In this document: positions 13,545 to 18,180 of the stretch, in pieces | How positions within the stretch are numbered: position 1 is the first letter of the stretch | Layout: every line of letters begins with the position of its first letter | DNA from: Saprospiraceae bacterium | GTDB taxonomy: Bacteria; Bacteroidota; Bacteroidia; Chitinophagales; Saprospiraceae | Assembly (NCBI GenBank): GCA_024762995.1 | Contig: JANTGI010000012.1 | Span: forward strand, 1-39,814 | DNA: 39,814 nt | Reading direction: 5' to 3' | Notes under the pieces: generated by a model | The model's database searches: none | Seen by the model: only the letters and a program-made list of their open reading frames with translations | What the model was told of the DNA's origin: nothing | Made by a program: the position numbers and the translations under genes

Positions 13545-13569
13545 TTCATATTTTTTTGCTATTATTTTT

Positions 13570-14214
13570 TTAGGTCTTTTTTTTGAGTTTGTCTTTTTCC
13601 CATTTTTTTGCGTTGTTTTCGATGTAGTTAGAGATGTAGTAGTGTGATCTTTCGTCCCGGATGATGATGTCCCAGTAGTCGCGTTGCCAGATGGAGCCTT
13701 TGGAGGGGATGTTGGGGAGTGGGGCGCTCGTCGGGGCGATCGTCGGGGCGATCGTCGGGGCGAATTGCAATTCGCCCTTACTATCTACGCCCTTAGCGTT
13801 GTCTAGGTCCTTGTTATTTTTGATATTTTGGTGGAGTATTCTTATTTTTTTGGTGGTTGCGCCTTTGTAGCCGCGGACGATGGCTCCGATAGTTTGCGAT
13901 GGAGATTTAAATTGGTTGGGGGTGTGTTCTTGGGGTTTCAGGCGGTAGTTGATCTGGATGATGGCGTGAAAGTGATTGGGCATTACGATGTAGGAGCCTA
14001 GAGTTACATTCTTGCGGATAAGGGCGGTATTTTCCCATTCTGCCTGGGCTATTAGACCAAAGTCATTTAAGATCATTTTTCCATGCTTGATGTCGCCGAA
14101 AATATTTTCTCGATTTTTCACCACTAATGTTATGAAGTATAATCCAGGTTGAGAATAGTCAAAATTCTTTAGACGTATCGAACGCCTATGGTGCCTTAAG
14201 GGGTCGTAGCTCAT
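13570..14214 (-). CDS. REP-associated tyrosine transposase (RAYT, IS200/IS605-like Y1 family)
   Basis: 214 residues. The start RLKNFDYSQPGLYFITLVVKNRENIFG is typical of this family (positions 14-40). The HUH motif is in MPNHFHAII (His81, His83). The later conserved block SIWQRDYWDIIIRDERSHYYISNYI contains the nucleophilic tyrosine at about 190-200. RAYTs are single-copy relatives of IS200 transposases that nick DNA at REP palindromes and are thought to spread them. Between the HUH motif and the tyrosine lies an unusual insert, encoded by a 20 bp perfect palindrome and a 12 bp repeat (ELQFAPTIAPTIAPTSAPLP). The gene is convergent with the glycosyltransferase. All key residues are intact, so it may be active. 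Confidence 0.9.
   Translation of the reverse strand: MSYDPLRHHRRSIRLKNFDYSQPGLYFITLVVKNRENIFGDIKHGKMILNDFGLIAQAEWENTALIRKNVTLGSYIVMPNHFHAIIQINYRLKPQEHTPNQFKSPSQTIGAIVRGYKGATTKKIRILHQNIKNNKDLDNAKGVDSKGELQFAPTIAPTIAPTSAPLPNIPSKGSIWQRDYWDIIIRDERSHYYISNYIENNAKKWEKDKLKKKT
13734..13777. repeat. 12 bp tandem repeat and 20 bp perfect palindrome inside the RAYT gene
   Basis: Three 12 bp units (CGATCGTCGGGG and one variant, CGCTCGTCGGGG) run into GGGCGAATTGCAATTCGCCC at 13758-13777, which is a perfect 20 bp inverted repeat with no spacer. Both are read in frame and add about 17 residues between the catalytic motifs. Confidence 0.9.
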
Positions 14215-14559
14215 AATCTGCTTTTTGATAGAATATGCAAAGTGAGTTGTCTGCTAAATAGCAGTATGTCACTCGCCTTGTTTTGTGGTAACTACTTAGA
14301 TATCCGCAAGTTTTTGCCGTCAACATTCCTGTTTTGTTTTCTAAAATAAGGGACATCTAAAGTAACATTTTAAGTAAGTATAAAGCTAACTCACTGTTAC
14401 AGAGTTGATTGGCTTTGAGCAAATGTACGAAAAATATCCTAAATCAAATTAAGAAACTTGTTTTGCTAGAGTCTCTCGCCGATGTTCGAAGGCTTGGCTA
14501 GGTGCTCCGTAAAGTTAGAATCGTTCAAGGCAGCAGGTTATAGATAAGTGAGCCAAGGT
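14215..14559. other. Intergenic region upstream of the RAYT gene with a hairpin
   Basis: No gene is seen. The hairpin CTGCT-AAAT-AGCAG (14251-14264) is extended outward by GAGT/ACTC (about 14244-14274, imperfect), 30-60 bases upstream of the RAYT start. It is a candidate REP-like site of that enzyme. One AGGGACA motif occurs at about 14349. Confidence 0.5.
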
Positions 14560-16749: not shown

Positions 16750-18180
16750 CTATTTTACCACAAATCGTCGAATCTCCACCCCCGCTTTAGACGTGATTTT
16801 CAAAAAGTATAAACCGGACTTCAATTGTTTATTAGCCAACTCGATCTGCTGTTGATTAGCGGCAAGTCTATGCTTTTCTGTGTACAGTAATTGTCCGTTT
16901 GCCGAAAGGATATCCAGGTTTAAGTTTATTGGCCTATTTACATTTAGCGTAAGCCGAACGGTCGAAGTAATAGGATTGGGCTGGATGCTCCAATCACTAA
17001 TCTCATCAATTTCCGAAAGGGCTAAGGGGCCGGTTATAAATGTCCACTTCATCGAAGTCAAGCTATCGGAGCAAGTATATCCATCATTAAATGGGGTCAC
17101 TCGCCAAAAATAATTTTTGTTTGGTTCCGGCAAAGCAAGTACATATTCCGATTGAGTCGTGATAAAAGTTTGCGTGAGTTGAGAGAAGTTGGAGTGTCGG
17201 GAGACTTCCAGGAAATAGGTTGACGCATTCGGCACATCATTCCAATCAAGAGTGACGTAATTGGAACTTAACGTCGTCGAATTGGCGGGAGAGATAAGCG
17301 TAGGGGCTTGGTTGATAGGCGTGGTATTGGGGATGTAGTTGCTCTGCAAATAAGCTCGGGAAGGCTTTGCATAATCGGCCTGCATCACCATTGATTGCTC
17401 GGGGGTAAAGGCAAAGAGTGGACACATCCAATAACCCATGGCATTGTTGGTCATGGGGTGGATGGGTGTGCCGCAGGAATCTTGGTCCGTCCCGGTGTAC
17501 GTACAATCATCAGCGCCAAGTGGCCCCAGTACATTATAATCCGGAGGTGTGTCACAAATAAAATCGGCGACATTTTCACAATTTTGGGCGCAAGTACTGG
17601 AAGTATCTATTTCAATATGGTCACTGGTGGTATTCATCAGGCTAAAGAAGTGACCGAGTCCGTGGGACGTTCTGGAGAGTGGAGCAAAATAACTGCTGTT
17701 CTTCATAATTAACCAGTCATCAGGGTGAGAATAAATAATCCCACTTGATCCTGTCGGATTGAGTATATCATGAACAATAAAAATATTAACCGCTGTCGAA
17801 TCAAAGGCTTGTCGGCAACTATTCGTCGTCAATGCACTGGTATGATTGTAGTCGAAGACAGCCGAATTGTCCATATAATCGAATCCATCTTTGATATAAA
17901 AGGTAAATCCGGTATTGGCAAATTCTTGATTGACCCGACAAAGCGCTTCAAAGACTTTGTGCTCCGTAACTCGTTGTTGCCCTTCAGAATCCGCAACTAA
18001 GTGGAATTTAATGGGGACATATCTTTCGTCTTCGGGAAAACCATCCGGATGTTTTTGGATTAAGGATTTGCTGGCTAAAATTCTCTGGATGGCTTCGGCT
18101 CGATTGGTGCCACACTCGTCTTGAGCTTTCGCAAAAAAGGAAAAAAGAAGAATGATGATAAAAGGGTAAAGGTATTTCAT
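16750..18180 (-). CDS. Secreted M43-like protein with degenerate zinc site (HGLGH), FN3-like and T9SS sorting domains
   Basis: 476 residues. Signal peptide 1-19 (ending FFAKA). Residues about 50-280 resemble M43 (pappalysin-like) metalloproteases: VNQEFANTGFTFYIKD, VNIFIVHDI, a cysteine-rich DFICDTPPDY segment and a Met-turn-like NAMGYWMC. However the zinc motif, normally HExxHxxGxxH, reads HGLGHFFSLMN (His173 to Asn183): catalytic Glu is Gly and the third ligand is Asn. An FN3-like domain follows (about 297-380), then a type A T9SS sorting domain (QPNPITSTVRLTL ... GLYFLKITSKAG). It should be exported and surface-attached but probably not proteolytic. The frame is intact, so this is not simple decay. 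Confidence 0.87.
   Translation of the reverse strand: MKYLYPFIIILLFSFFAKAQDECGTNRAEAIQRILASKSLIQKHPDGFPEDERYVPIKFHLVADSEGQQRVTEHKVFEALCRVNQEFANTGFTFYIKDGFDYMDNSAVFDYNHTSALTTNSCRQAFDSTAVNIFIVHDILNPTGSSGIIYSHPDDWLIMKNSSYFAPLSRTSHGLGHFFSLMNTTSDHIEIDTSSTCAQNCENVADFICDTPPDYNVLGPLGADDCTYTGTDQDSCGTPIHPMTNNAMGYWMCPLFAFTPEQSMVMQADYAKPSRAYLQSNYIPNTTPINQAPTLISPANSTTLSSNYVTLDWNDVPNASTYFLEVSRHSNFSQLTQTFITTQSEYVLALPEPNKNYFWRVTPFNDGYTCSDSLTSMKWTFITGPLALSEIDEISDWSIQPNPITSTVRLTLNVNRPINLNLDILSANGQLLYTEKHRLAANQQQIELANKQLKSGLYFLKITSKAGVEIRRFVVK

Follow-up and report, generated by a model that had tools for sequence, protein, structure and literature searches.

A REP palindrome within the coding sequence of its presumed transposase in a Bacteroidota-wide clade of RAYT genes

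The RAYT gene of a Saprospiraceae bacterium examined here raises the question of how a REP palindrome came to lie, as translated DNA, within a transposase gene, and of what has kept it there. In the window, by which we mean the whole stretch of 39,814 nt that was analysed, the 20-bp core GGGCGAATTGCAATTCGCCC is a perfect palindrome and the sole match to its sequence even when three mismatches are allowed, where shuffles lead one to expect none. Read on the minus strand, the palindrome region encodes GELQFAPT (the core itself GELQFA) in frame with the 214-aa RAYT ORF, in the context ...DSKGELQFAPTIAPTIAPTSAP... (Table 1), just as the initial annotation had proposed in placing a REP-type palindrome between the HUH motif and the tyrosine. 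Set beside GTAG REPs, which have three G-C pairs at the base of the stem and a GT[AG]G foot, the GGG/CCC base is present here and the foot is GTAA in the window and GTAG or GTAC in relatives. The three 12-bp units that had been read as adding a proline-rich linker are real and in frame, and their GGGGCGATCGTC-type copies begin at 13721, 13733 and 13745 (spacing 12 and 12; product APTIAPTIAPTSAP), slightly before the position of 13734 originally given. However, because similar reiterations (CGCCCCAACNG...) border extragenic REP copies (in Faecalibacter and at L127) as well as an insert in hsdM described below, they look like part of the REP, a reiterated 3' arm plus foot, rather than a linker of independent origin.

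Table 1. Coordinates of the RAYT gene and its REP-related features in the window
Feature	Position	Strand	Remarks
RAYT / TnpA_REP (Y1 HUH transposase) gene, 214 aa, intact open frame	13570..14214	-	
HUH motif MPNHFH, residues 78-83	13966..13983	-	H81, H83 invariant
WQRDYW with presumed catalytic Tyr180	13672..13689	-	W176, Q177 invariant; Y180 near-invariant
REP palindrome core GGGCGAATTGCAATTCGCCC	13758..13777	-	same frame in 11/18 clade members
5' foot GTAA of REP (variant of GTAG), coding strand	13778..13781	-	homologues have GTAG, GTAC or GTAA there
Reiterated 5' foot unit (GGGCGTAGATA ahead of GTAA)	13782..13796	-	18 bases identical to F. macacae
Three reiterated 12-bp units (CGCCCCGACGAT type), apparently REP 3' arm plus foot, coding for APTIAPTIAPTSAP	13721..13757	-	
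Stretch with RAYT gene; congener G033 lacks it between the same two neighbours	13545..14559		exact ends approximate

Both the motifs and the predicted fold identify the ORF as a TnpA_REP/RAYT protein, with the HUH motif and a presumed catalytic tyrosine in what is modelled as a Y1 fold. It matches Pfam Y1_Tnp above the cut-off (E 2.1e-5), and its best family match is NCBIfam REP_Tyr_transpos (E 1.3e-14), at a score of 54.3 bits that is under the curated cut-off of 80, as are the scores of all six clade members tested. NHFH and WQRDY fall in invariant columns, as judged on an alignment of 27 homologues, and the last motif of the window protein is YIENNA where the subclass has YIxNNP and most clade members have YIxNNP or YIxENP. 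The AF2 model (mean pLDDT 84) is matched by Foldseek to IS200/IS605 TnpA structures and to the E. coli RAYT-REP complex 4er8, in which TnpA_REP is bound to a REP hairpin; the E. coli protein shares the HUH/Y1 fold by this comparison but has only 14% sequence identity to the window protein and is assigned to subclass 2.2 in the main text of Quentin et al. (2018; PMC6006769). In the model, the insert lies between helix alphaC (109-140) and the strand (176-184) that bears Tyr180, with the palindrome-encoded residues 147-152 inside an unstructured segment (141-175) whose first part, residues 141-160, has a pLDDT of about 55 and no secondary structure.

In-frame REPs in the gene of their own transposase are already a published phenomenon: subclass 2.4, as presented in the main text of Quentin et al. 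(2018; PMC6006769), has REPs inserted in frame within tnpA_REP genes, generally between HUH and Y and as a peripheral extension. The window gene and its relatives resemble that subclass, as portrayed there, in the NH[IFV]H and WQ motifs (NHFH and WQR in the window), in the Cyanobacteria/Bacteroidota distribution, in long or double-foot REPs, and in having an in-frame REP between HUH and Tyr. They differ from it in that its variable insertion lies between beta3 and alphaC (slot 1 in what follows), whereas the REP of the clade described below lies between alphaC and beta4 (slot 2). What is added here is the clade itself, the use of this second loop, the frozen codons and a compensated switch of the palindrome sequence; in the main text of PMC6006769 we found no report of the alphaC-beta4 location, of clade-wide retention, of a codon test, of a compensated switch or of the hsdM pair. 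The GTAG REPs, described along with in-frame copies in other genes by Di Nocera et al. (2013; PMC3733652), are comparable in the parts of that paper that bear on them: they are short palindromes with a GTAG-type foot, associated with RAYTs and sometimes lying in frame in ORFs, with DNA repair genes among the hosts, but the foot here is GTAA, GTAC or GTAG and often double. The RAYT section of the same paper makes no mention of REPs lying within RAYT genes. The Rickettsia palindromic elements cited there are likewise palindromic DNA lying in frame in protein genes and translated, but they are CGTC-tagged, according to the passages concerned, and have no RAYT gene linked to them.

How general the phenomenon is can be gauged from 66 RAYTs gathered by protein similarity, in which perfect hairpins with an arm of 7 or more were counted and compared with codon shuffles. 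Slot 1 contains such hairpins in 37 of the 66 genes against a shuffle mean of 4.1 (maximum 9) and slot 2 in seven against 0.7 (maximum 3); the N-terminal part shows a slight excess (23 against 13.0, maximum 22), and in helix alphaC and the C-terminal part of these 66 proteins there is no enrichment, counts falling within the shuffle range. Many slot-1 peptides, VGADLRVCP, VGATLVVAQ, GQPQGIAPT and RDAMHRVST among them, are translated REPs of other families. The window REP is in slot 2 and the beta3-alphaC loop of its protein is short, whereas the sister rows L101, L110, L203 and L204 have their insertion in beta3-alphaC. Together with GELQFAPT and similar peptides, such translated REPs explain the 'variable domain' seen in this subclass of transposases.

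All 18 genes with the REP in slot 2 form one clade in a tree built on the core without loops (support 96/96, in an analysis whose bootstrap had not fully settled), spanning Weeksellaceae, Flavobacteriaceae and many further Bacteroidota families. Members were picked by protein similarity alone and not by the peptide, a choice that added members with one mismatch, a relic or another frame, and every one of the 18 has a REP or its remnant in the slot-2 loop. The perfect GGGCGAATTGCAATTCGCCC is found in the same frame in 11 (the window, L005, L006, L007, L098, L099, L100, L127, L155, L160 and L210), and in L211 a perfect palindrome occupies the same place in another frame and reads GRIAIRP. In one further member, L097 from the close relative G048, both partners of a pair are changed and pairing is kept (GGGCGTATTGCAATACGCCC); the contig ends in the REP, and the available portion of this RAYT has 64% identity to the window protein. 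One-mismatch palindromes are present in three members (L197, L199, L208) and decayed relics in two (L200, TDELTFAPT; L209, STCESQFAP), and since perfect pairing has thus been lost in 5 of the 18, the palindrome is not essential. The initial annotation is supported in that this is a REP-type element in the gene of its presumed enzyme, with copies elsewhere in the genome, but a recent or strain-specific capture is not supported: the insert is clade-wide, and the linkers of homologues do carry palindromic DNA. In L100 (genome G009), the RAYT gene has a second REP copy with its flank downstream of the tyrosine motif, in place of the usual C-terminal helices, and that gene may be damaged.

The DNA letters of the palindrome are held across the clade far beyond what the protein needs. 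Among 16 members (leaving out the near-duplicate L006 and the other-frame L211), not one synonymous difference was seen at the six palindrome codons in 591 pairs sharing a residue, pairs that are not independent of the tree, while the 118 core columns of the rest of the gene have a mean codon identity of 0.464 and the best six-column core window reaches 0.62. None of 50000 residue-matched draws reached the palindrome value, a count that sets the palindrome against the remainder of these genes and is not a probability. The nine substitutions away from the consensus that can be reconstructed are all non-synonymous, and the peptide changes from E to V, from F to Y and from Q to L, T or K. The pattern is one of DNA-level conservation or recent renewal and not of protein-level constraint. 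The proposal that the insert is simply tolerated in a loop is borne out as far as the low-confidence loop of the AF2 model goes, but it is not the whole story, because mere tolerance fails to explain six codons without synonymous change in 16 species, and codons frozen to this degree mean that the DNA has been maintained or repeatedly renewed.

Mobility of the same REP is visible in two sister species of Faecalibacter. The hsdM gene of F. rhinopitheci (identified by Pfam N6_Mtase and HsdM_N) has an in-frame insert of about 78 bp that includes the same REP and reiterated feet (TCRGETKGDENKGETKGELQFAPTAPTAPTAPT), which is absent from the hsdM of F. macacae, the two genes being otherwise about 90% identical in the part compared. 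At a second hsdM site, which both species share, the REP is read in a different frame, and in F. macacae a change has broken its palindrome. These REP-bearing loci, which encode a type I restriction-modification methylase, are L092 1238-2881 (F. rhinopitheci) and L094 1114-2679 (F. macacae). Most clade genomes have further REPs of this type outside the gene, and types tend to match: where the RAYT is of the GAA type, the genome mostly has no copies but those of the GAA type, 30 GTA-type copies were counted in an Atribacterota genome with the GTA type in its RAYT, and both types are found together in G003 and G697. In three draft genomes, copies were found within the RAYT gene and nowhere else, two in G009 and one each in G048 and G694. 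A REP-rich genome of the same order as the window, G677, has 84 copies of GGGCGAA-N(0-6)-TTCGCCC, with loop types that include TGCA, AATT and TGC.

We consider it probable that the window gene belongs to the TnpA_REP/RAYT subclass in which the gene contains copies of its own REP as coding sequence, that the REP was taken up by the ancestor of the clade, that the enzyme recognises and spreads the hairpin, and that the in-gene copy has been kept by selection or renewed. In the ancestor of this Bacteroidota-wide clade, one REP, a palindromic hairpin with a GTAN foot, would have been taken up in a stop-free frame in the loop between alphaC and the tyrosine strand, and the protein would tolerate it since this loop is away from the catalytic core. 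The RAYT would recognise the hairpin in single-stranded DNA and spread it, and the in-gene copy would go on functioning as part of the REP family, whether as a selected cognate site travelling with the enzyme gene or through periodic renewal by copying from other REPs. We infer both the recognition of the GGGCGAATTGCAATTCGCCC hairpin by the enzyme of this clade and the reason for its conservation from sequence comparison. A palindrome that arose by chance in a proline-rich linker, unrelated to REPs, can safely be set aside given the window shuffles, the exact 20-mer, present in 7 of 396 genomes from the order against none for the reversed control, and the copies that flank RAYT genes in other genomes. 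It is also highly improbable that GELQFAPT and the proline-rich repeats are selected at the protein level as a linker or binding motif: the peptide is indeed similar in most clade members, but the pattern of changes in the codon test disfavours such a role, with only synonymous sites frozen while residues change, and unrelated peptides from other REPs are found in other RAYT clades, L211 reads the element in another frame, and the pLDDT of the loop is low.

The choice between selection and renewal is less easily made. Renewal without function, by which a neutral in-gene REP would be overwritten again and again by other copies (through gene conversion or re-insertion at a tolerant site) and would look frozen because it is always young, is a serious contender that falls somewhat short of an even chance. 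Two observations point toward it: decay is entirely non-synonymous, as expected for a young unconstrained peptide, and L211 has the palindrome at the same place in another frame. The in-gene 3' flank of F. macacae, which resembles the flank of a nearby extragenic copy, and the 18 bases upstream of the core common to the window and F. macacae, which are distant in the tree, are also consistent with renewal, but it sits less well with the occupation of the same slot in the same frame by 17 of the 18 members, with separate feet and flanks. What points in the other direction, toward selection, is that no donor copy is visible in the drafts G009, G694 and G048, together with the compensated switch. 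It is possible, although we would call it tentative, that the in-gene REP is a selected cis-element, the enzyme's own recognition hairpin retained within the coding sequence, in which case the enzyme and its site could move and co-evolve as one piece and sites would switch by compensated pairs that also alter the protein. Autoregulation, in which the RAYT or a hairpin in its mRNA would act on the gene that encodes the enzyme, for instance if the enzyme kept expression low by nicking or binding the DNA or mRNA from which it is made, would account for conservation at the DNA level, for the kept pairing and for a segment that folds better than shuffles (z -2.9 as DNA, -2.6 as RNA); we nevertheless regard it as improbable, as the palindrome is lost in some clade members and it is the sequence that is held and not the stem alone, which an mRNA hairpin by itself would not need. 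The slot-2 clade bears on how RAYTs stay matched to their REP families: its synonymous sites are frozen phylum-wide, one member shows a compensated switch of the site and others have decayed copies, which allows an embedded REP to be tested as functional (in binding, cleavage or autoregulation) or simply renewed.

In the window's own genome, the palindrome is not unique, as the suggested genome search might have found it to be: a second perfect copy lies in an array between trpD and trpC. This array comprises three REP copies in the trpD-trpC gap (L170 186-303; G000:C212). A 19-bp REP-like copy is translated in frame as GRIAFAPT in an unrelated ORF, a partial one of 144 aa (L169 2-433; G000:C147) in which it stands beside a tandem repeat, TQESPSP, that forms the contig end. 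Within 1.5 kb of the window gene no REP copies were seen outside it, whereas REPs adjoin the RAYT genes of Faecalibacter, L007 and L127; since copies in the window's genome are few and none flank the RAYT gene, active spread of the REP is not visible there. In the comparison with the congener G033 (L182), about 10 bp separate the ends of the two neighbour genes and no RAYT lies between them, which would represent either a species-level gain in the window's genome or a loss in G033. Terminal inverted repeats were looked for around the RAYT stretch and none were found. The idea that the REP entered an already present RAYT in this strain alone was rejected, as the REP is clade-wide and G033 lacks the whole RAYT stretch and not the REP alone. 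Elsewhere, L176 (G093:C46) has two RAYT copies about 3 kb apart, with matches at C46:13991-14431 and 17050-17649, the first of which is broken by stops; these lie in a perfect palindrome of 34 bp, longer than the REP core that it includes.
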